Shown here: one piece after another, positions 12,922 through 23,432 of the stretch
Position numbering within the stretch: position 1 is the first letter of the stretch
Layout of the letters: each line of letters begins with the position of its first letter
Source of the DNA: Thermodesulfobium narugense DSM 14796
Lineage (GTDB): Bacteria; Thermodesulfobiota; Thermodesulfobiia; Thermodesulfobiales; Thermodesulfobiaceae
Reading direction: 5' to 3'
Length of the DNA stretch: 64,000 bases
Assembly: GCF_000212395.1 (NCBI RefSeq)
Contig: NC_015499.1
Coordinates: 1,437,421-1,501,420, forward strand
Notes under the pieces: generated by a model
What the model saw: only the letters and a program-made list of their open reading frames with translations
Database searches by the model: none
Told to the model about the DNA's origin: nothing
Translations under genes and position numbers: made by a program

Positions 12922-13290
12922 GTGAATAAAAGAGGGGTAACTTTGATAGAGCTTTTGGTTGCATCTGTTTTTTTGCTTGTTGCCCTCATCATTCTTGCTT
13001 GGGGTCTGTCATCATCCCTAAAGGCATCAACAAACAACTATATTCTAAATCAAGCTAATATACTTGCTGACTCTCAGATGGAAAGTTTAAGAGCTCTAAG
13101 TTTAGGGACTTCTGTAAACATTCAGAACCCAAATTACTGCGTTAATAATGGAAAGATATGCTTTAATCTAACCGCTGTCCGCTCAAAAGATCCAAACTCT
13201 AGCTGTGACATACTAAGTGTAACTGTCAGCGATACAAAATCACCTCCAAGGTTTAAGGACATAAATTTGCAATCTGAGGCGTGTCAATGA
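12922..13290 (+). CDS. Type IV minor prepilin, PilV-like (cassette 1)
   Basis: A 122-residue prepilin. The leader MNKRG is followed by VTLIELLVASVFLLVALIIL, giving cleavage after Gly5 and the conserved Glu at mature position 5, then a hydrophobic helix. The short globular part contains four Cys residues that could form disulfides. It starts at a GTG with GGGAG upstream, and its end overlaps the next gene by 4 bases. It is the first gene of the first of two adjacent minor-pilin cassettes. Minor pilins of this kind prime pilus assembly at the inner membrane and sit at the tip; which filament it serves is unknown. Confidence 0.87.
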   Translation: MNKRGVTLIELLVASVFLLVALIILAWGLSSSLKASTNNYILNQANILADSQMESLRALSLGTSVNIQNPNYCVNNGKICFNLTAVRSKDPNSSCDILSVTVSDTKSPPRFKDINLQSEACQ

Positions 13291-13880
13291 GAGAAAGAAG
13301 TGGTTTTACACTTACTGAGTTTTTGGTAGTTATTGTAATAGCATCAATGATTGCACTTGCTGTAATATATGCTTTATCAAGCGGCGGCAAATCATTTGTT
13401 AAAAATCAAGAAATAGACAATATATCTGTTAGTGTCCCAAACATTCTTTATAGTATGTCAAGAGAAATTAGAGAAGCTGGATATATAAACTTACAAAAAA
13501 ACCCAATCGCGATAGTAAATCCAAACGTAGTTTGTGCTCAGGGAAGTAGTGGTTATATATCCTTTAACCTTGATATTCCTACCTCTCAAAATCCTGATGG
13601 AACAGGCACATATAGCGTAGTGAAATATCAATTGCAAAATGGTAATCTATCAAGATGTGTAAACAATACAAATTGCACAACACTTAATCCCCCAAATGTT
13701 GTCTTTACAGATTTTTCGCCCACACTTGGGACAGTAAATTCAAGTGTTAATTTTGTTCCAAATCAGACAGACTCTTCAGGAAATTATAATATAGTCCAGA
13801 TTGGTATAACCGCAAAGTTAAAATCTGGTAATAATTCTTATACGTTCACAAAGGAGGTGAAGTTAAGAAATGTTCAGTAA
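13287..13880 (+). CDS. Type IV minor prepilin, PilW-like (cassette 1)
   Basis: A 197-residue prepilin. MRERSG is followed by FTLTEFLVVIVIASMIALAVI, so cleavage after Gly6 leaves Glu at mature position 5. The globular part has a PilW-like segment MSREIREAGYINLQKNPIAI. A Cys-x4-Cys pair and the motif NPPNVVF recur in the PilW-like protein of cassette 2. An in-frame GTG six bases upstream is rejected because GAGG lies 7 bases before the ATG at 13287, which also overlaps the preceding stop as ATGA. Second gene of cassette 1. Confidence 0.85.
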   Translation: MRERSGFTLTEFLVVIVIASMIALAVIYALSSGGKSFVKNQEIDNISVSVPNILYSMSREIREAGYINLQKNPIAIVNPNVVCAQGSSGYISFNLDIPTSQNPDGTGTYSVVKYQLQNGNLSRCVNNTNCTTLNPPNVVFTDFSPTLGTVNSSVNFVPNQTDSSGNYNIVQIGITAKLKSGNNSYTFTKEVKLRNVQ

Positions 13881-15231
13881 AAAACTTTCTGACAAAAGCG
13901 GGTTCGCTTTGCCAATTGCAATTGGAGCTTTAATATTTTTTATCATAGTAATTGGAGTATGGGCAGCTTTAAACCTATCTCTATTTAAAGCTTCCTCTGC
14001 ACAAACAGGCTCTGTTCAGGCTCTAGCTGCCTGCGAAGAAGGAGTATCCTATGCATCATCTAAAAATCTTCCAGTTGGAAACACGCAATATACTTCTAAA
14101 GAGGGTTTAAACGTAAACATTAGCATTACAAGTCCCTCTGGTTCTTCAAGTTATATTACAAAAATTATAACTGCATCTGTAAGCGCACCCCAAAAGAGAT
14201 CTGTAACAGTCTATCTGGGGAACGTAATTCCTGGTGCAGTTATCGCAAATGGGGATATAAATATGAACAGCAACTCAGAAATTACTACAAACAATCCAAA
14301 TATTCCTGGAGCACTTCTTAGTGGGACTCTAACAAAAGATTCAAACTCATCTGTTATAGGGCCTCCACAGTTTCTTCCAGACTTTACCCCTTATAAGAAC
14401 GCTATCCATCAGGTAGTCAGCAGTATGACTCCAAGCATACCACCAGCACCCACAAATTATACTTTACTTTCTAATTTCACTTGCGGTCAAACGTTGACGG
14501 GAAATTATATTTTGACGAGTAATCTTCCAAATAAATGTAATCTCACCATAAATGGCAATCTTGTAGTAAATTCTTCAAATTTTGTAATTGATACAAATAG
14601 TTCTCTCACTGTAAATGGTAATATGTGGTCAAATAACCTTAACCTGAACTCAAATGCCAGTCTAATTGTTAGCAAAAATTTATACGCAAACGGCAGCGTA
14701 ACAGATAATTCTAACTCACAGATTAATATAGCCAGCAACATTATTTTAACGGGTAGCAACTCAAACCTCATCTTAAACAGCAATTCAGATACAATTTCAG
14801 GAAGTATCATTACAACTGGAAATAATACCTCGGTAACATTCAACAGCAATTCTACTGTTGGCGGTAATATTGTAATTTATGATGGAAATTTAACCTTTAA
14901 CTCCAATGTACAAGGGTTAAATAATAATTTAATCTACGTGGGAGACAGTTCTGGCTCATCTTTGTTGGGCAATCTAACTATTAGTAGCAACAATACCATA
15001 AATGGTCTCGTCTACGCTTCTGGATCAGCCCAAATAGGAAAAACAACTGTACAGATGAATTCTAATTCAAATATAAATGGTGCCTTACTAGTAGAAAGCG
15101 GAAACTTACAAGTAAATGCTGGTAGTAGCATAGTTTATAATCCTGCTACTTTCAGTAATATAACCAATCTTTTGTCAAATTATTTAAGTGCTCCCATCAT
15201 TACAGGCTCATGGCATGAACCAGCATCTTAA
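13870..15231 (+). CDS. PilX-like pilus protein with Asn-rich beta-solenoid-type C-terminal region
   Basis: A 453-residue protein. The N-terminus has a prepilin-like leader ending Lys-Ser-Gly (residue 11) followed by FALPIAIGALIFFIIVIGVW, without the Glu at position 5, as in PilX/GspK-type proteins. From about residue 130 to 430 the sequence is built of short strands rich in Asn-Ser-Asn (for example NMNSNSEI, LNLNSNASLIV, LILNSNSDT, VTFNSNSTV, VQMNSNSNI), spaced roughly 20 residues apart, which suggests a parallel beta-helix with Asn ladders. A perfect AGGAGGTGA is 9 bases upstream of the ATG. Adhesin or surface-polymer function at the pilus tip is inference. Confidence 0.75.
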   Translation: MFSKKLSDKSGFALPIAIGALIFFIIVIGVWAALNLSLFKASSAQTGSVQALAACEEGVSYASSKNLPVGNTQYTSKEGLNVNISITSPSGSSSYITKIITASVSAPQKRSVTVYLGNVIPGAVIANGDINMNSNSEITTNNPNIPGALLSGTLTKDSNSSVIGPPQFLPDFTPYKNAIHQVVSSMTPSIPPAPTNYTLLSNFTCGQTLTGNYILTSNLPNKCNLTINGNLVVNSSNFVIDTNSSLTVNGNMWSNNLNLNSNASLIVSKNLYANGSVTDNSNSQINIASNIILTGSNSNLILNSNSDTISGSIITTGNNTSVTFNSNSTVGGNIVIYDGNLTFNSNVQGLNNNLIYVGDSSGSSLLGNLTISSNNTINGLVYASGSAQIGKTTVQMNSNSNINGALLVESGNLQVNAGSSIVYNPATFSNITNLLSNYLSAPIITGSWHEPAS

Positions 15232-15283
15232 ATTTGAATATTGTTAATATTGCAATTTATTTATTTTGTAATACAATTTGAGA

Positions 15284-15293
15284 TATACTTAAT
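15284..15293 (+). promoter_or_regulatory. Promoter-like element of pilin cassette 2
   Basis: ATATACTTAA preceded by TTTGAG, 18 bases before the ATG at 15312; identical to the decamer before cassette 1. TATACT would be the -10 hexamer. Confidence 0.4.
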
Positions 15294-15311
15294 CCTTAAG
15301 AAGGGGTTCTT

Positions 15312-15770
15312 ATGGCGTTTTTTAGCATGAAAAAAAATAAATTGGGTTTTACGCTAATAGAGCTGATGGTGGCGGCAGTTCTTCTCGCCTTTGGCCTTAT
15401 GACGCTTGCTGCTTCTCTATTAGGATCTATAAGAGCTCAAGAAGCAGCTGCGCAGCAAACAAACGCTCAAGGGTTGGTGAACCAAAAGCTAGCTCAGCTA
15501 TCTGCTATGGCAAATCTTCAAAATAGCTCTGATGTAACTGTTGGATGGAATACATTTCTTGCTCAAAATAATTCTACAGAAACAGTCACAATAAATCATT
15601 CTTTAACTGGTACTAGAAAGGTAACTATTATAGACAACAATCCAGGCACTCAATATGAATATGCAGATGTAATAGTAACAGTAAGCTATAATTGCGGCAA
15701 GCCTGGAGGAGCGCTTTGCCAGGTTCAGGGATTTGAGCATATAGATAAACCCCAAGCAGTTTCACCATGA
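15312..15770 (+). CDS. Type IV minor prepilin, PilV-like (cassette 2)
   Basis: A 152-residue prepilin. The leader of 12 residues ends Lys-Leu-Gly and is followed by FTLIELMVAAVLLAFGLMTL, with Glu at mature position 5. The Ala/Gln-rich stretch after the helix (RAQEAAAQQTNAQGLVNQKL) matches PilV-type minor pilins. AAGGGG lies 5 bases before the ATG; an internal ATG at 15327 would give a shorter leader but has no such site. It opens the second cassette, whose gene order mirrors the first (PilV, PilW, PilX), and overlaps the next gene by 4 bases. Confidence 0.87.
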   Translation: MAFFSMKKNKLGFTLIELMVAAVLLAFGLMTLAASLLGSIRAQEAAAQQTNAQGLVNQKLAQLSAMANLQNSSDVTVGWNTFLAQNNSTETVTINHSLTGTRKVTIIDNNPGTQYEYADVIVTVSYNCGKPGGALCQVQGFEHIDKPQAVSP

Positions 15771-16552
15771 GAAACAAGTCTGGCTTTACTCTTATAGAGT
15801 TAATGGTAACCCTGACCATACTTGTGATAATCACAGCTGGTGTTACAATCCTTCTTATCAATGCAAACAACACGCTTATCTCATCTCAAAATAGAAACAT
15901 TACAAGCTCTGCTGTCTCTACAGTTCAAACTCTTATGTCTAAGGATCTTGCTCTGGCCGGCAGGGGTGTAAATTTAGATGTTGGTCAAAGTATGGCAAAT
16001 GCTACTACTTTCGTGCCTGTTCAGACTGCTGGCGGAATAATCAGATTTAAGACTGCATGCGTTTATTATAATAGTTCAAATCAATACAATACTTCATATC
16101 AAATTGGGACAGATCCAAACAACCCTGTGTATGACGTTTCCTGTACTGCAAGAGATCTGGCGCCCAGAAAAGAGATAGAATATAGTTTAGAAAACAACCC
16201 AGATGGTTCAAAAAGTCTTCACAGAATAGTAACCTTTTATCAATCGGACTGGACTACAGTAGTAGGAAGCCCAATAGATAATGCTATAACACCAAAAAAC
16301 GTAAACGTAACAAATGTAACTGCTACGTGCTACAACTATTGTAGTAATTCAACTTGCTCATCTATAGTGAACCCTCCAAATGTTGTCGCTTGTTCAATAA
16401 ATAACACCAATCCAATAGATCTGAGTAAAAACGTGCAAAGCATTCAAATTTCCATTACATTGGAAGCAGACACAAAAATTAACCCCTCTTTAAGAGGAAG
16501 TCAAACAGGAACATTTCAGGTTACTCCAATCTTTCTTGTAAGGGGGAATTAA
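15767..16552 (+). CDS. Type IV minor prepilin, PilW-like (cassette 2)
   Basis: A 261-residue prepilin. MRNKSG precedes FTLIELMVTLTILVIITAGV, with Glu at mature position 5. The globular domain carries LMSKDLALAGRGVNLDVG, comparable to the conserved MSRDLRxAG region of PilW, and a Cys-rich patch CYNYCSNSTC followed by NPPNVVACS that recalls the cassette 1 homologue. Its ATG overlaps the preceding stop by 4 bases (ATGA). Likely forms a tip complex with the PilV- and PilX-like neighbours. Confidence 0.85.
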   Translation: MRNKSGFTLIELMVTLTILVIITAGVTILLINANNTLISSQNRNITSSAVSTVQTLMSKDLALAGRGVNLDVGQSMANATTFVPVQTAGGIIRFKTACVYYNSSNQYNTSYQIGTDPNNPVYDVSCTARDLAPRKEIEYSLENNPDGSKSLHRIVTFYQSDWTTVVGSPIDNAITPKNVNVTNVTATCYNYCSNSTCSSIVNPPNVVACSINNTNPIDLSKNVQSIQISITLEADTKINPSLRGSQTGTFQVTPIFLVRGN

Positions 16553-16554
16553 GC

Positions 16555-18678
16555 ATGAATAAAAATGGTTCAGCTTTGATAATCGTCTTAATAATTATGG
16601 CTTTGATATTAACTATTTCGGTAAGTTTAGCAGCTCTAGGACTAAATCCTATTAAATTTGCAGAGAAAAATGCCCTATACGATCAGGCTGTTTATGCAGC
16701 ACAGGATTTCTCGAGTCAGTATATAAACGCTATAAAACAGCAATTTATAGCAAACCAAGGACAACCTCCAGATCCAAACAGCTTAGGAATATCTACAAGT
16801 CTACAATACAATACAAGAGGTATAGGAAATCCCAATATAGAGGTGGATTTAGCAAGCGCTGATTATGTATTCTACCCTGATCAAACTAACTGGACAGATT
16901 GTCACTATGATCTTTCTTTTATAGCCAAGGATTTAAATAGTGGTAAAAATATATTGCAATACAACGTACACTTTGACATAAATAACTCTCCTCCAAACGC
17001 AGCTCTTCTCACCAATAAAGATTATAATTCAGGTGGAACATCCGGAGGCAACTGGTGGCTGGGAGGCTTTAGCAGGGTGGTAGGACCATATTACACAAAC
17101 GATAGCGTGGGCATCGCTTATTGGCAAAACGCAAACGCTAATACGAACCCTCCTACTGCACCGATGTTTGATGCTCTAAATAGATTCGTGCCCACGGCTC
17201 CAGCGCTTCCAGATTTGAGAGTTGGCGGAAACATTATATGGTATGGTACCCAACCTGTTAGTTCCTCAGACTGGAAAAAGATTGCCTATCAGGGAAATGT
17301 GGGCGTTCAGACAAATTACCCAAAATATTCTTTTGCACAAAACGTTTTGGGGAGAGGGGTCAATCTTTTACCAAATGAAGCGAAAGGAAACAGTACGCTA
17401 ACAGGCAGTAACAGCAGTTTTGTAGCTTTTAATAGCGGGTTTAGCTCTATTGTAGGAGGAAGTTATTATTCCCTATACATCAATCCAAGCGCAATAAATA
17501 GCAACTACTCTGTGGATCAATTCGAGTTCTCCTCTATGAGGATGAACTTTCAGGTTAACGGAATGTCTAAATATGCATCAATCTACAGAATTACTCTCTC
17601 ATCAGACTCAGGTAAAAGATATAGAATATGGCTAATAGATATACCAAGAGCAAGCGGTTCAACTGCTACTGACAGTGAACTATCTACAAAGATTTTTTAT
17701 GTTCAAAAATTTAATTATGGAAGTGGCAAATGGCAATATACAACAGATCCTCCATTTTCATCCTGCCCTCTTACTATAAATAGCGACAAGTGTAACCCTT
17801 ATGTAGTAACGGATAAAACAGACTTTAATCTAATATATATAAACGGTCACGTTCAAGAAATGCAAACAAGCACTCTGCCACAAGGAGATTATAACTCCTC
17901 AAGCGATCTTTATAACGCCCTAAAGCTTTCGGGTCATGGGAATGGTTCAAACGAAGACTTAGCAGATCTGGTTGCGGGGCAACCTCCTGCCAAGCCTAAA
18001 GATCCCAATAATCCCTGGCAATACTACGTGTCTGGAAGGCTTACTGTGGCAGCAGCGGGCGATATCGTAATTGGAGATGGTGGGACCAACTATCTTAATT
18101 ATAGCCTTACATATCCTGAAAGGCTCATTAATCCTGATGGGAGCTTTACATCTTATTCTGGGACAAATGACTCCAGATTTTTACTTGGGCTTGTGGCAAG
18201 GAATATATTCTTAAATGTAAAATCTAATGCCAATAAACCTCCTGCTAAGGCCGACTATGCCAATGATGGGGTAAACGTTTCTGACAATCAAACCTACTCA
18301 TTTGATGGGCAAATTCTTACCTTTGGGACTCAAACTGGGAATAATGACAATACTATAAAGGTGGGGGTATTTGATAATTATCACTATTATAGTAATGTTG
18401 CAAGCGGCGATCCTACGGACACCTCAAATTATCCATACTTCTCAGTGAATTATGGCAACGATAATTTGCTCGGCTATGCCCTCACAAGAGGTATGCTAGT
18501 TGAAAACTGGCATGGAGTATGGGGTTTCTTTAATGGTAGTGCTCTAACAAATGGTTATCAAGATGAATACGTATACGATAATCGCTTAAGATACTTTGTT
18601 ACTCCCTGGTTTCCTCTACCAAAAAATCCAAATATGCCGGCAAACTATAGCATGACGGTAGAGATAGTAAAACTATGA
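16555..18678 (+). CDS. Large PilX-like pilus protein (cassette 2)
   Basis: A 707-residue protein. MNKNG precedes SALIIVLIIMALILTISVSL, a prepilin-like signal without the Glu at position 5, as in PilX/GspK proteins. The huge extracellular part is rich in Asn, Tyr, Gly and Trp, lacks recognisable enzymatic motifs and includes SGRLTVAAAGDIVIGDG and LLGLVARNIFLNVKSN, segments seen in large PilX-type proteins. It starts two bases after the preceding stop and overlaps the next gene by 4 bases. PilX proteins are usually under 250 residues, so most of this one is probably a binding or tip domain. Confidence 0.75.
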   Translation: MNKNGSALIIVLIIMALILTISVSLAALGLNPIKFAEKNALYDQAVYAAQDFSSQYINAIKQQFIANQGQPPDPNSLGISTSLQYNTRGIGNPNIEVDLASADYVFYPDQTNWTDCHYDLSFIAKDLNSGKNILQYNVHFDINNSPPNAALLTNKDYNSGGTSGGNWWLGGFSRVVGPYYTNDSVGIAYWQNANANTNPPTAPMFDALNRFVPTAPALPDLRVGGNIIWYGTQPVSSSDWKKIAYQGNVGVQTNYPKYSFAQNVLGRGVNLLPNEAKGNSTLTGSNSSFVAFNSGFSSIVGGSYYSLYINPSAINSNYSVDQFEFSSMRMNFQVNGMSKYASIYRITLSSDSGKRYRIWLIDIPRASGSTATDSELSTKIFYVQKFNYGSGKWQYTTDPPFSSCPLTINSDKCNPYVVTDKTDFNLIYINGHVQEMQTSTLPQGDYNSSSDLYNALKLSGHGNGSNEDLADLVAGQPPAKPKDPNNPWQYYVSGRLTVAAAGDIVIGDGGTNYLNYSLTYPERLINPDGSFTSYSGTNDSRFLLGLVARNIFLNVKSNANKPPAKADYANDGVNVSDNQTYSFDGQILTFGTQTGNNDNTIKVGVFDNYHYYSNVASGDPTDTSNYPYFSVNYGNDNLLGYALTRGMLVENWHGVWGFFNGSALTNGYQDEYVYDNRLRYFVTPWFPLPKNPNMPANYSMTVEIVKL

Positions 18679-19043: not shown

Positions 19044-19073
19044 TTGACATTAGAAAATTTTTTGATATATTAA
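19044..19073 (+). promoter_or_regulatory. Promoter of the TonB-dependent receptor gene
   Basis: TTGACA at 19044-19049, an 18-base spacer and TATTAA at 19068-19073. Transcription from about 19080 would give a leader of about 125 bases that contains two hairpins before the start codon. Confidence 0.6.
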
Positions 19074-19102: not shown

Positions 19103-19205
19103 ACTCTAAATGAATTAGAGTACTTTTAAATTTCTAAACTTAGTATTAAAGCCATGAAGGCTTCTTGTCTTCATGGTTTATTTTTTTAAGGGAGGTAGAG
19201 GATAT
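19103..19205 (+). promoter_or_regulatory. Candidate attenuator/riboswitch leader of the TonB-dependent receptor gene
   Basis: Two hairpins are visible. The first is ACTCTAA-ATGAA-TTAGAGT (19103-19121). The second pairs 19149-19159 (AAGCCATGAAG) with 19169-19179 (CTTCATGGTTT), loop of 9, and is followed by a run of seven T at 19181-19187 and then AAGGGAGG, the ribosome binding site. This is an intrinsic terminator shape directly before translation starts. The block AAAGCCATGAAGGCTT can instead fold as AAGCC-ATGAA-GGCTT, which would exclude the terminator. The same block and T run precede exbB. The hairpin also encodes a 11-residue reading frame (ATG 19154, stop 19187-19189). Confidence 0.6.
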
Positions 19206-21293
19206 TTGTTTATTGTGTTTGTTTTTTTGTTCTTTGCGTTTTTTTATTCAAGCTCGGCAGAAATTGGATTTTGTGATGATTCCTCTCAGTTTCAAGAAAT
19301 TGTAGTTTACGGGAACAAGGAAAAAGAGAAGAATGTAGATGTGGTAAACGTGTTCAAAGTAAACCCTGCTATGAGCTTTTCTATTACTGATTATCTCAAG
19401 GATATGGCAGGAGTAGAGATCTCAGAAAAATCTCTTCTGGGAGACACGGGCGATATAGTCAAAATAAGAGGTTTTGGCAATAACAGATTGAAAGTATTTG
19501 AGAATGGAAGAGATATCAATGCCACAGGCGTCTACGGCGGCTTTTATGTGGATTGGAGCACTATACCGCCAATAAACGTTGACTCTATTAAGGTTGTAAA
19601 AAGCGGTGTAGACGCAAAGCTTGGAGTTTTAGGCGGTGCAGTAGAGATTAAGAATAGAGTTCCAACTGGCACCCCGATAACAGAGTTATTTGGTTCATAT
19701 GGCACAAGGGATACTCAAAATTATAGATTTTATTACGAAAACAAGATAAAGGATATACCATTCAATATTTCTATCGATCATCTCTCTTCTGACCCATTTT
19801 TAAGAAACAACAATTTCCTCTCAAACTCTTTTAACTTTTCCACGGTTATTCCAAACGTTTTTGATGGCAAAATTAATGCCTCAGTCTATTATACAAAGGT
19901 AAAAAGAGGCCTTATAGTAAACAATAGAAAATCAAACGATCCTCAAAGTCCATTGTGGAATGTCCCAATTGATCCCTCATATCCTACATCACTTGGAGAA
20001 TTTATGCCGCCTGGCGGTGGTCCCACCAGGACGCCTGTAATGGGCGCTTATTGGCAAAAGGAAAAGACTCTTCTGGATCTTTCATATGAACGAGAAATAT
20101 TTGGCTGGCAGGCAAAATTCGCAGGCTTCACAAACAGAGAAGAAAGATACGAGGTAAATCCTGGGCTTCTTATAAGGGATCTAAAGCCTGACAAAACTGA
20201 TGGATTCTATATGGATTTTAGCAAGGATTTTTCAAAGCACCGCGTAAGATTTGGCTATTACTTTAAGAATCAGGGCTCAGGGGATACATTTATAATCTAT
20301 GAAAAGACAAATCCTCCTACTTACGACCAAAATAGCCCATCTAGTCAAAAGATAATTTACAATTCAGCATATCTTGATGACAGGTTTAAGATATCAAAGA
20401 AATCATCTATTTATATGGGTATAAGGTATGATAGCTTTCACGCAGAGGGAGCACCTATGTTGCAGGACGGAAGGGGGACCAACGTCCAGGGTATATCTCT
20501 CACAGGTAGTGCAATTACCCCAAGGATAAGTTTAGACTACGAACTAACCAAAAACGATACTGCAACGCTTTCAGTTTTCAAATCTGCAAGGATGCCCACT
20601 AATCCTGAATATTATTGGTGGCTTACAGGCTATAGTGGAGCAAAGCTCGCAAATGGCGCTCCTGCCCCCGGATATAGACCGGTAAATTATCTTTTAAAAC
20701 CAGAAAAAGAAAATGCAGTAGAACTTGGTATTAAAGGAAAGAGAATTGGATTTGACTACTCTATTAATGGCTATTATTACTGTATTCACGACTATATTAT
20801 GTTTCGAATTGATCCAAATCCTACAAACAGAGTGGCTTACAACGTAGATGAAGTAAATATGTATGGAGTTGAAACAACGCTCAAAAAGAAAATAAAGGGC
20901 ATTGATACAATACTAACATATACCTATCAGAGAAGCACAAAGGTTAACGATGCACTCGACAGCCAGCATCTGTTAAACGGTTTGGATTATTTTCCAAGAA
21001 ATATGGCAAATTTAACGTTTCAGAAAAAATTTGATAATGGCTTGATTTTAGATTTTGACAATCACTACGTATCAAAGCAAAATTTGCTGTATGCACCAAA
21101 TAGCAGTAAGCTTGAGCTTGTTTCGATAAAGCCTTATTATACTGCAGACCTTGGAATATCGTATCTTATGCCAAAGCACGACCTGAGGATGGATCTGATG
21201 ATCTATGACATTTTTAATAAGAAGTACCAAGAGGTATTTGGTTATCCAATGCCAGGAAGAAGCGTATTTGGATCTTTAACTCTAACTTTTTAA
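19206..21293 (+). CDS. TonB-dependent outer-membrane receptor
   Basis: Ligand-gated 22-strand barrel with an N-terminal plug. A signal peptide (residues 1 to about 18) precedes a TonB-box-like QEIVVYGN, then plug sequences (DYLKDMAGVEI, DIVKIRGFGNNRLKVFENG, IDSIKVVKSG-like, GAVEI). The C-terminus GRSVFGSLTLTF ends in aromatic Phe, as needed for barrel assembly. About 695 residues. An ATG at 19173 is in frame but lies inside the leader hairpin; a TTG at 19206, ten bases after GGGAGG, is preferred, with a GTG at 19215 as alternative. The exbB-exbD-tonB operon that would energise it is 3 kb downstream and shares its leader. Substrate unknown. Confidence 0.88.
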   Translation: MFIVFVFLFFAFFYSSSAEIGFCDDSSQFQEIVVYGNKEKEKNVDVVNVFKVNPAMSFSITDYLKDMAGVEISEKSLLGDTGDIVKIRGFGNNRLKVFENGRDINATGVYGGFYVDWSTIPPINVDSIKVVKSGVDAKLGVLGGAVEIKNRVPTGTPITELFGSYGTRDTQNYRFYYENKIKDIPFNISIDHLSSDPFLRNNNFLSNSFNFSTVIPNVFDGKINASVYYTKVKRGLIVNNRKSNDPQSPLWNVPIDPSYPTSLGEFMPPGGGPTRTPVMGAYWQKEKTLLDLSYEREIFGWQAKFAGFTNREERYEVNPGLLIRDLKPDKTDGFYMDFSKDFSKHRVRFGYYFKNQGSGDTFIIYEKTNPPTYDQNSPSSQKIIYNSAYLDDRFKISKKSSIYMGIRYDSFHAEGAPMLQDGRGTNVQGISLTGSAITPRISLDYELTKNDTATLSVFKSARMPTNPEYYWWLTGYSGAKLANGAPAPGYRPVNYLLKPEKENAVELGIKGKRIGFDYSINGYYYCIHDYIMFRIDPNPTNRVAYNVDEVNMYGVETTLKKKIKGIDTILTYTYQRSTKVNDALDSQHLLNGLDYFPRNMANLTFQKKFDNGLILDFDNHYVSKQNLLYAPNSSKLELVSIKPYYTADLGISYLMPKHDLRMDLMIYDIFNKKYQEVFGYPMPGRSVFGSLTLTF

Positions 21294-21302
21294 CCACTTA
21301 AA

Positions 21303-21330
21303 AGCCCTCAAATTCTTGAGTTTGGGGGCT
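21303..21330. terminator. Hairpin between convergent TonB receptor and trmO genes
   Basis: AGCCCTCAAA pairs with TTTGGGGGCT (one G-U wobble), loop of 8. On the minus strand it is followed by a short T run, so it fits best as the trmO terminator; it may also stop read-through from the receptor gene. Confidence 0.55.
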
Positions 21331-21739
21331 ACAACTCTTTATACTCTACGTAGGGTTTTATGTCCAGAATGGGCGTGCCATCCAACATATCAAGTCTTCT
21401 AACCTTTATTATATTATCTGATTTATCTAAAACCTCAAGTACAGAAAATCCTATTGGGTTTGGCCTATAAGGCGAACATATACTGAACACTCCTTTTTGT
21501 ATGCCTATATGAGGGGGGTATTGAATAAGCTTTTCCTGAGAGAACGGAGGTGATTTGTGAAAACAAAAGATTACACATATCTTTTCCTTTGGCTTTATAT
21601 CCCTTATTCCATCTTTATATTCAGGGGATATAACCAGCTCCCCTTCAACGTCAGAAACACTCCAGTGTCTGGGAATGCTCTCGGAACTATTTTTCACATA
21701 ACCAATAGGTACAAATTTGCATTCAATTTTATCTTCCAT
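21329..21739 (-). CDS. trmO: tRNA (N6-threonylcarbamoyladenosine-37) N6-methyltransferase TrmO
   Basis: SAM-dependent methyltransferase of the TrmO (TsaA/YaeB) beta-barrel family, which methylates t6A at position 37 of threonine tRNAs. The family signature SPYRPNPIGFSVLEV (about residues 85-99), the preceding HKSPPFS segment and the later RLDMLDGTPILDIKPYV are all present. 136 residues, close to the single-domain length. An in-frame ATG 18 bases upstream would put the ribosome binding site AAAAAGGAG inside the gene; the ATG at 21739 lies 6 bases after it and is chosen. The enzyme that helps make its substrate, TsaD, is encoded at 62233. Confidence 0.9.
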   Translation of the reverse strand: MEDKIECKFVPIGYVKNSSESIPRHWSVSDVEGELVISPEYKDGIRDIKPKEKICVIFCFHKSPPFSQEKLIQYPPHIGIQKGVFSICSPYRPNPIGFSVLEVLDKSDNIIKVRRLDMLDGTPILDIKPYVEYKEL

Positions 21740-21795
21740 AGATTTCTCCTTTTTCATATATTTTGAAATTATACTCTCTTTTTATAAAACGTTAA

Positions 21796-22473
21796 TTAAT
21801 CTTCTAATACAAATCTAATAGGCAAAATTGCTCTTGACTTAACAAATATCCCATTTTCTGTAGCCGCCTTAAAAGTTGACTGTTTTACAGCATTAATAGC
21901 TGCCTGTGCAAAATCATCATTCGTACTATCTATCACCCTAACGCCTATAAGTCGGCCATTTTCGTCAATTAATAACTCTAATACTACCTTTCCTTCAATC
22001 CCCAACCTTTTCTCTCTAACAGGATATTCTGGAATCACTCTTCTTATAAATTTCGGACCATCTGACGAACCAAATGACTTTGAATATATTTTATTGCCCA
22101 TTTCTCTCTGAGAACCATCTTTGATACCCTCACCTCTTTTGTCAGCACTTATAAAACCACTGTTAACTTGACCCGGAACATCTACACTTGAAACCTGATT
22201 AGTCGATAAATTAGTTATACTTACAGTTTGGGTATTATCAGAAACTTTTTGAGGATTTTGTTCAATTACATTTTTCTCCAAAGTCTTGCTACTCTTATCC
22301 TCATTAATCTTTTTGCTTAAATCTTTTTGACTCTCTTGAAGAGAATTTAGACTCATAATGAATATTGGTTCACTCTTTATAACGTTCGCCGCACCTAATA
22401 GAAAAACGCTGCCAAAGAGTAGTAAGTGAAATATTATGGAAAATATAAAGCTAAGAGAGAAGCGTTTGTTCAA
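21796..22473 (-). CDS. tonB: TonB energy-transducing protein
   Basis: Inner-membrane protein that spans the periplasm and transmits proton-motive force to outer-membrane receptors. An N-terminal membrane anchor (about residues 7-30) is followed by a Lys/Gln/Ser-rich linker, without the Pro-Lys repeats of enterobacterial TonB, and a C-terminal TonB domain with RRVIPEYPVREKRLGIEGKV and FAQAAINAVKQSTFKAA. 225 residues. It starts at a TTG overlapping the exbD stop by 4 bases. Third gene of the exbB-exbD-tonB operon. Confidence 0.92.
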   Translation of the reverse strand: MNKRFSLSFIFSIIFHLLLFGSVFLLGAANVIKSEPIFIMSLNSLQESQKDLSKKINEDKSSKTLEKNVIEQNPQKVSDNTQTVSITNLSTNQVSSVDVPGQVNSGFISADKRGEGIKDGSQREMGNKIYSKSFGSSDGPKFIRRVIPEYPVREKRLGIEGKVVLELLIDENGRLIGVRVIDSTNDDFAQAAINAVKQSTFKAATENGIFVKSRAILPIRFVLED

Positions 22474-22880
22474 ACTCTCTCATCCTTGAGCGTTTCTATG
22501 TTGTATCTTTCTATTCCTGCTGCCCTACACGCATCAATAGCCTTTACAACATAATCAAAATGAGTATTTTTATCAGCACGAATTTTTATAACTATATTCG
22601 GGTTATTTGCTCTAAGTGTTCTTAGAACTTCAGTAATTAATTTTGGATCAGTTTTGTCTTCATTAATAAACATCGTTCCATCACTTTTTATTGTAAGCGA
22701 AATATCTTTAAGATCTTCCTTTATAACTGCAGTTTTAGCTTGTGGCAAATCAATCGGAATAGCACCCTGAGCTATTAAAGTCGCAGTAACCAAAAATATT
22801 ATAAGAATGACTAAGACAACATCTACCAATGGAACAACGTTTATTTCTGCTATCTCGTCATCATGGTTTGGATTGTGCAT
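22470..22880 (-). CDS. exbD: Biopolymer transport protein ExbD
   Basis: Component of the ExbB-ExbD proton channel. The single membrane helix contains INVVPLVDVVLVILIIFLV, with the essential Asp in the PLVDVV motif, followed by a periplasmic domain ending in a KAIDACRAAGIERYNIET segment typical of ExbD/TolR. 136 residues. Two ATGs are possible; the one at 22880 has AGGAG nine bases upstream, whereas the upstream ATG at 22898 overlaps that site. It overlaps exbB by 20 bases and tonB by 4, so the three genes are translationally coupled. Confidence 0.92.
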   Translation of the reverse strand: MHNPNHDDEIAEINVVPLVDVVLVILIIFLVTATLIAQGAIPIDLPQAKTAVIKEDLKDISLTIKSDGTMFINEDKTDPKLITEVLRTLRANNPNIVIKIRADKNTHFDYVVKAIDACRAAGIERYNIETLKDERV

Positions 22881-23316
22881 TATTAGCGTGCTCCTCATAT
22901 ATATAGCTCAAATCTCTTGCCTTTCTAACGAAATAGTTATATGCAATTACACACGGTACAGCGACAAATAGCCCTAGTGCAGTAGAGCTAAGAGCTTCAG
23001 CAATTCCATTCATTACTATTCTTACTCCAAAATCTTGAGAAAAGGCAAGATCGTGAAACGCCTTCATAATTCCAAGTACCGTACCAAACAAGCCTATAAA
23101 TGGTGCATTACTTCCGACAGTTGCAAAAAAACCAAGTCTTTTATTAAGATTTGATCGCAGATCTGAAGGAGTATAACTAAAGAGCTCTTTTTCTATTTTT
23201 CTCATAAAAAAAATCTTTTCTAAAATAAAAGCGACAGATAAAATGCTTAAAATTATTAAAAGCACTAAAACAGGGTCCCCACCTACCATTGCAAGATTTA
23301 ATATTAGTTTTGCCAA
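22861..23316 (-). CDS. exbB: ExbB/MotA/TolQ family proton channel protein
   Basis: Membrane protein with three helices; GSNAPFIGLFGTVLGIMKAF (about residues 70-89) and GIAEALSSTALGLFVAVP are the conserved pore-lining segments. 151 residues. The preferred start is a TTG five bases after AGGAGGG. An ATG 60 bases upstream (23376) is in frame without a stop and would add 20 residues, but these are encoded by the terminator-like leader hairpin and are not ExbB-like. First gene of exbB-exbD-tonB. The related receptor gene at 19206 shares the leader. Confidence 0.9.
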   Translation of the reverse strand: MAKLILNLAMVGGDPVLVLLIILSILSVAFILEKIFFMRKIEKELFSYTPSDLRSNLNKRLGFFATVGSNAPFIGLFGTVLGIMKAFHDLAFSQDFGVRIVMNGIAEALSSTALGLFVAVPCVIAYNYFVRKARDLSYIYEEHANNAQSKP

Positions 23317-23398
23317 ACTATCCCTCCTAAAAAAATAAGCCATAAAAGCATGCGCACTTCTTGCACAAGCCTTCATGGCTTTGTCCTAAAGCTTTAAT
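23317..23398 (-). promoter_or_regulatory. Candidate attenuator/riboswitch leader of exbB-exbD-tonB
   Basis: Minus-strand leader of about 82 bases. It contains AAAGCCATGAAGGCTT, identical over 16 bases to the receptor leader, then an inner GC-rich part (TGTGC...GCGCA), then a 3' arm ending TTTATGGCTT that pairs with the block, then TTATTTTTTTA and the ribosome binding site AGGAGGG. The 16-base block can alternatively fold on itself (AAGCC-ATGAA-GGCTT). Layout and sequence of the T run and binding site match those before the TonB-dependent receptor. Confidence 0.6.
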
Positions 23399-23404
23399 TT
23401 TATA

Positions 23405-23432
23405 ATTTTATCAAATTCGATCCAAAAGTCAA
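23405..23432 (-). promoter_or_regulatory. Promoter of exbB-exbD-tonB
   Basis: TTGACT (23432-23427), 16-base spacer, TAAAAT (23410-23405) on the minus strand; the predicted start near 23398 gives a leader that begins just upstream of the shared hairpin block. Confidence 0.6.

Follow-up and report, generated by a model that had tools for sequence, protein, structure and literature searches.

A recurrent leader element before TonB-system and metal-uptake genes of Thermodesulfobium narugense and other anaerobes: a candidate transcription attenuator for nickel scarcity

The window, a 64,000-nucleotide stretch of the Thermodesulfobium narugense genome, contains a gene for a TonB-dependent receptor and, on the opposite strand, a run of exbB, exbD and tonB closed by a gene for a TrmO-domain protein (Table 1). 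No NCBIfam model scored past its cut-off on the receptor. A run of prepilin-like genes (pilus minor pilins) at 12922-18678 lies immediately 5' of the receptor leader.

The initial annotation had placed a promoter before the receptor gene at 19044-19073, which is present, with a span two positions shorter at its 3' end in the consensus scan. The terminator hairpin and the seven T directly before the ribosome binding site AAGGGAGG were confirmed. The 16-base block AAAGCCATGAAGGCTT, located at 19148-19163 (+), does recur on the opposite strand before exbB (23382-23367), together with the T run and, following it, the ribosome binding site AGGAGGG. The start of the interval first singled out, 19103, coincides with the start of hairpin P1, which had not been mentioned at the time. 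The exbB leader leaves no room for P1 between its promoter and hairpin P2.

Table 1. Features of the two leaders and their genes, in window positions
Feature	Position	Strand	Basis
Promoter of the TonB-dependent receptor gene, TTGACA-16-TATATT, extended -10	19044..19071	+	Consensus scan 11/12, TG before second hexamer
Hairpin P1, ACTCTAA-ATGAA-TTAGAGT, loop AUGAA at 19110-19114	19103..19121	+	Sequence; compensatory changes, three congeners
Hairpin P2, antiterminator form, AAGCC-AUGAA-GGCUU	19149..19163	+	Growing-chain fold; covariation in 49 diverse sites
Intrinsic terminator, 13-bp stem 19149-19179, seven T 19181-19187	19149..19187	+	Folding, covariation, model R2 41.8 bits
Ribosome binding site AAGGGAGG	19188..19195	+	Sequence
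TonB-dependent receptor, TTG start, signal peptide	19206..21293	+	PF00593 + PF07715
Promoter of exbB-exbD-tonB, TTGACT-16-TAAAAT	23405..23432	-	Consensus scan 10/12, TG before second hexamer
Hairpin P2, exbB leader	23367..23381	-	Sequence, covariation
Intrinsic terminator of exbB leader, stem 23381-23337, seven T 23335-23329	23329..23381	-	Folding; 49.7 bits
exbB, TTG start	22861..23316	-	PF01618
exbD	22470..22898	-	PF02472
tonB	21796..22473	-	PF03544
TrmO-domain protein, final gene of the exbB-exbD-tonB run	21329..21757	-	PF01980

In the receptor leader, the terminator and P2 are mutually exclusive, the same strand forming P2 and the 5' arm of the terminator. This leader holds two terminator-like sites (the hairpin and a mini-hairpin inside it) versus 0.0 +/- 0.1 in shuffled sequences, and the folding z-scores of the two leaders were -3.35 and -4.35, with none of the shuffles folding equally well. 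A hairpin and a U run lie between promoter and gene together with an alternative fold, the arrangement of an intrinsic terminator that could work as an attenuator. Folding of the growing chain displayed that P2 forms at leader nucleotides 88-97 and is replaced by the terminator at nucleotides 100-106; P2 alone is worth -5.7 kcal/mol and the terminators -17.9 to -27.8 kcal/mol. Since P2 forms first and is then replaced by the terminator, a loop-binding factor that held P2 would cause read-through. A leader peptide reading the ATG AAG GCT in P2 was considered and rejected, as frames and lengths differ between sites; an in-frame fusion of the P2 ATG to exbB exists in the T. narugense genome and in the congener G002 (170-aa open reading frame) and is not found in G003.

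Members elsewhere in the genome were located with the 15-base core, allowing up to two mismatches, and with a covariance model built from the sites of the genus. The exact core occurs genome-wide only at the receptor and exbB sites; with up to two mismatches it occurs at 12 places, among which the cbiM, CooC-like and hydrogenase sites proved to be further members. Altogether, six operons of this genome carry the element, which besides the two in the window precedes cbiMQO; a CooC/MinD-like ATPase gene that has genes for a FecBCD-type ABC transporter and a methyltransferase behind it; the genes for an [FeFe] hydrogenase, a small subunit and cytochrome b; and a porin-like gene whose P2 stem is changed to GUC-ACGAA-GAC. 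P1 occurs in the leaders of the receptor, hydrogenase and CooC-like genes; those of exbB and cbiM lack it, their predicted transcription starts leaving it no room. In G002, the receptor, exbB-exbD-tonB and CooC-like/FecBCD/methyltransferase operons form one cluster with three elements. Within the genus, the 3' arm tracks the conserved 5' arm mostly by G-U-compatible, pairing-preserving changes, and compensatory changes in P1 of the receptor leader separate the Thermodesulfobium species (three congeners).

Several neighbouring features were observed at these sites. Beside the [FeFe] hydrogenase operon lie hydF, hydE, NifH-like and nitrogenase-component-1-like genes (L042 1821-7288), and a SAM methyltransferase closes the FecBCD-type operon (L041 6523-7119, -). 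Methyltransferases recur beside the element elsewhere, the TrmO-domain gene being the last of its run in the window. A separate conserved short unit (L069 ~1470-1560, L065 and L073, corresponding to G000:C1:1817772 and two congeners) consists of a -10-like TATAAT, GGGTTCCCCCCACAGCACGG and a terminator GGCCATGAAGG...CTTCATGGCC; it resembles a small RNA with a C run.

Beyond the genus, an exact pattern that fixes the P2 core was scanned against about 85,000 species genomes and matched at least 115 stretches or contigs, mainly from sulfate reducers (Desulfobacterota), Nitrospirota and Clostridia, with a few spirochaetes and some probable chance matches among those listed. Conservation of the core in this wider set is partly due to selection by the pattern, and the independent evidence is given by the pairs outside it and by the later model matches. 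Across 49 diverse sites, P2 has the consensus AGCC-AYGAA-GGCU and covaries, its pair 2-14, outside the search pattern, being AU in 19, GC in 10, GU in 5, UA in 2 and CG in 1; at all sites it doubles as the 5' arm of the terminator, whose stem displays 38 cells changed on both sides and a score reached by none of 500 shuffles. The model matches extended this with the compensated stems ACC-AYGAA-GGU and GUC-ACGAA-GAC and with the loops AGGAA and AAGAA, the loop mostly remaining ANGAA. Both the alternative folds and this covariation support the suggestion that AAGCC-ATGAA-GGCTT competes with the terminator in a two-state attenuator.

The loop is shared by the upstream hairpins. P1 hairpins with NGAA or NNGAA loops occur at 54 of 121 sites, where shuffles give 1.6. 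Most of them stand 40-60 nt upstream of P2, with AGAA, AUGAA, AAGAA and UGAA as the commonest loops, and P1 with NYGAA loops occurs at 28 sites compared with at most three for permuted loops. At roughly half of the sites other than exbB and cbiM, P1 was not detected. The terminator tip, too, carries a GAA-containing loop more often than expected (35 of 101 versus 14.7).

A covariance model built mostly from the sites of other organisms found convincing matches in the window only at the exbB and receptor leaders (scores in Table 1), the next reaching 15.8 bits. Model R2 detected the element in 55 of 97 Desulfobacteria (Desulfosarcina class) genomes and, in the Algoriphagus-class control, in one of 99, that one preselected by the pattern; several copies per genome are common among carriers. 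Among the 88 genes downstream of the matches listed, CbiM (10), FmdE (9), DUF4198 (8), TonB receptors (8), SBP_bac_5 (6), ECF (5), TonB_C (3) and ExbB (2) were found. NikA/NikB-like transporters (SBP_bac_5 being NikA-like) and methyltransferases follow the element as well. LarE, which makes a nickel cofactor, comes after two sites scoring over the model cut-off, and a CobN-type chelatase follows one element, close to genes for MoxR/ChlI-like AAA proteins and an ABC transporter (L263 6251-15503). Covarying homologues, whose lack would have refuted the initial reading, do occur before other TonB-system genes, and before many metal-uptake genes besides; the proposal of one attenuator common to receptor and energiser is supported. 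Genes for DUF3842 proteins often adjoin the element and CbiM (L085, L141, L160, L263). An element and a gene closely resembling those of L101 and L138 (Desulfobacteraceae, deltaproteobacterial MAGs) were also seen in L121, a contig titled Candidatus Diapherotrites, which may reflect a binning error.

The anatomy, alternative folds, covariation, shared loop, recurrence and gene context are computational results. Considering them together, the element is probably a cis-acting transcription attenuator that ties metal-acquisition genes to the scarcity of nickel, less likely cobalt, through a trans-acting factor. Termination of the leaders in the cell would then be conditional. After leaving the promoter, the polymerase would transcribe P1, where present, with its ANGAA/NGAA loop, and then P2. 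Unheld, P2 would be invaded by the 3' arm within about 15 nt and its strand would refold into the far more stable terminator, so that the polymerase would stop in the U run immediately ahead of the ribosome binding site. Under metal scarcity, a candidate trans-acting factor, most likely a metal-free RNA-binding protein, would recognise the ANGAA loops of P1 and P2 and keep P2 folded, so that uptake genes, or nickel-sparing ones like that of [FeFe] hydrogenase, would be transcribed. That the signal is nickel, that scarcity turns the genes on and that the sensor is a protein are inferred here from sequence and gene context. Scarcity of nickel, or possibly of cobalt, is a likelier signal than iron siderophores, SAM or cobalamin.

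In anaerobes, nickel is limiting for hydrogenases, CO dehydrogenase and related enzymes. The presence of LarE, NikA/NikB-like transporters and [FeFe] hydrogenase among the predicted targets suggests nickel scarcity, and in Desulfovibrio desulfuricans, NikR sites were predicted to govern the hydAB operon, which places an [FeFe] hydrogenase in the nickel regulon (PMC545781). NikR itself (NikR_C) was not found in the T. narugense genome, nor in any of 80 Desulfobacteria genomes tested with positive controls; these genomes include element-positive and element-negative ones alike, so the result describes a vacant role rather than a genome-by-genome match.

Several proteins were searched for as partners, with some error to be expected wherever absence is called on a draft genome. 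FmdE, the second commonest target, was rejected as a regulator, as it was not found in the element-bearing genomes G041, G047, G051-G053, G114, G115 and G121, and so was CsrA, which is present in 21 of 29 searched carriers and was not found in eight, the loop of the element being ANGAA. The gene neighbourhoods of eight stretches with several sites each revealed no shared regulator gene. T. narugense has a single ANTAR gene, which codes for a REC-ANTAR response regulator and lies downstream of a HisKA_2/HWE kinase gene (L046 1462-3136; G000:C1 ~953500).

Antitermination of the ANTAR type, in which a REC-ANTAR protein such as that at G000:C1:953481 would bind P1 and P2, has a layout that the element matches where P1 is present, a pair of hairpins with like loops of which the second overlaps the terminator (PMC3369931), and it would draw on the single ANTAR gene with its upstream HisKA_2 kinase in the home genome and on the one ANTAR gene each in three congeners. 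However, the element has a five-base loop with G in third position, not the six-base loop with A in first and G in fourth position, the linker between P1 and P2 is 27 nt versus 5-12 in eut, and PF03861, detected in 11 of 20 element-bearing genomes including T. narugense, was not found in the other nine, six of them isolates, which leaves this mechanism quite improbable. Direct sensing, with P1 and P2 binding a metal ion or metal complex through identical loops and no protein, would agree with the pairing of like-looped hairpins, with the compact conserved loop and with the searches for ANTAR, FmdE and CsrA, from which no universal protein partner emerged. Such a riboswitch is nevertheless unlikely: binding that stabilises P2 would switch the uptake genes on in plentiful metal, which is the wrong sign, P1 is missing at several sites, and the element is very small for a metal aptamer. 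The regulatory logic is easier to reconcile with a protein partner than with a classical riboswitch, as P2-stabilising binding turns the genes on and uptake genes should be on in metal scarcity.

The identity of the metal is a separate matter. CbiM and CobN among the targets mean that cobalt may be sensed, and a cobalt or corrinoid-related signal would account for the CbiM family being among the commonest targets, for the T. narugense CbiM scoring above the NCBIfam 'cobalt transporter CbiM' cut-off and for the CobN chelatase adjoining one site; against it stand the nickel-cofactor enzyme LarE at two sites, [FeFe] hydrogenase as a nickel-sparing target and the NikA/NikB-like transporters, and we give it a small, though not negligible, probability. 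On another view, the shared sequence is fortuitous and the sites are plain terminators under no regulation, or a DNA operator. The hairpins are indeed good intrinsic terminators and the block is partly palindromic, yet the hairpins sit between promoter and ribosome binding site, the 5' arm is kept and most changes in the 3' arm preserve the pairing, and the P1 stems vary around constant loops, unlike a DNA operator; this view is very improbable.

The preferred reading of nickel-starvation antitermination can be extended to a class, in which a metal-responsive RNA-binding protein acting on the ANGAA loops of tandem hairpins would control nickel uptake and nickel-sparing genes across the sulfate reducers, Nitrospirota and Clostridia, groups in which at least some members lack NikR; in this broader form we give it an even chance. 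If it is true, a widespread regulatory RNA takes the place of NikR in Desulfobacteria, the targets of the element mark nickel transporters and receptors where sequence cannot tell the substrate, and its partner is a new metal sensor acting on RNA. The candidate family of nickel/cobalt-uptake attenuators in anaerobes is apparently undescribed, in line with the initial impression of a leader without a described family: a search of Rfam at the gathering score returned nothing for the window and nothing overlapping the element in 18 related loci, relaxing the limit to E = 10 yielded weak matches only, SQ1002_RNA for example (21.7 bits versus a gathering score of 128), and no description was found in openly licensed papers.

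Some known systems resemble the element in part. CsrA/Rsm sites carry ANGGA in hairpin loops, and they share the short hairpins and an A-N-G-purine loop, whereas the element has an ANGAA loop and would act by terminator exclusion. The NiCo (czcD) riboswitch has in common the transition-metal theme and leader-RNA control of transcription, but its anatomy differs, the element precedes mostly uptake genes, and no Rfam match was obtained. The NikR regulon of other deltaproteobacteria likewise covers nickel transporter genes and, by prediction in D. desulfuricans, those of an [FeFe] hydrogenase (PMC545781), through a DNA-binding repressor in place of the RNA attenuator proposed here. Where P1 is present, the layout also resembles that of the ANTAR-target RNAs, whose hexaloops need A1 and G4 (PMC8934654, PMC3369931). 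Their dual-hexaloop antiterminators (eut, nasF, amiE) comprise two small like-looped hairpins, the second overlapping the 5' arm of a terminator, where binding would prevent termination; the element differs in its ANGAA/NGAA loop, its longer linker, its optional first hairpin and its metal genes instead of eut, nas or ami.
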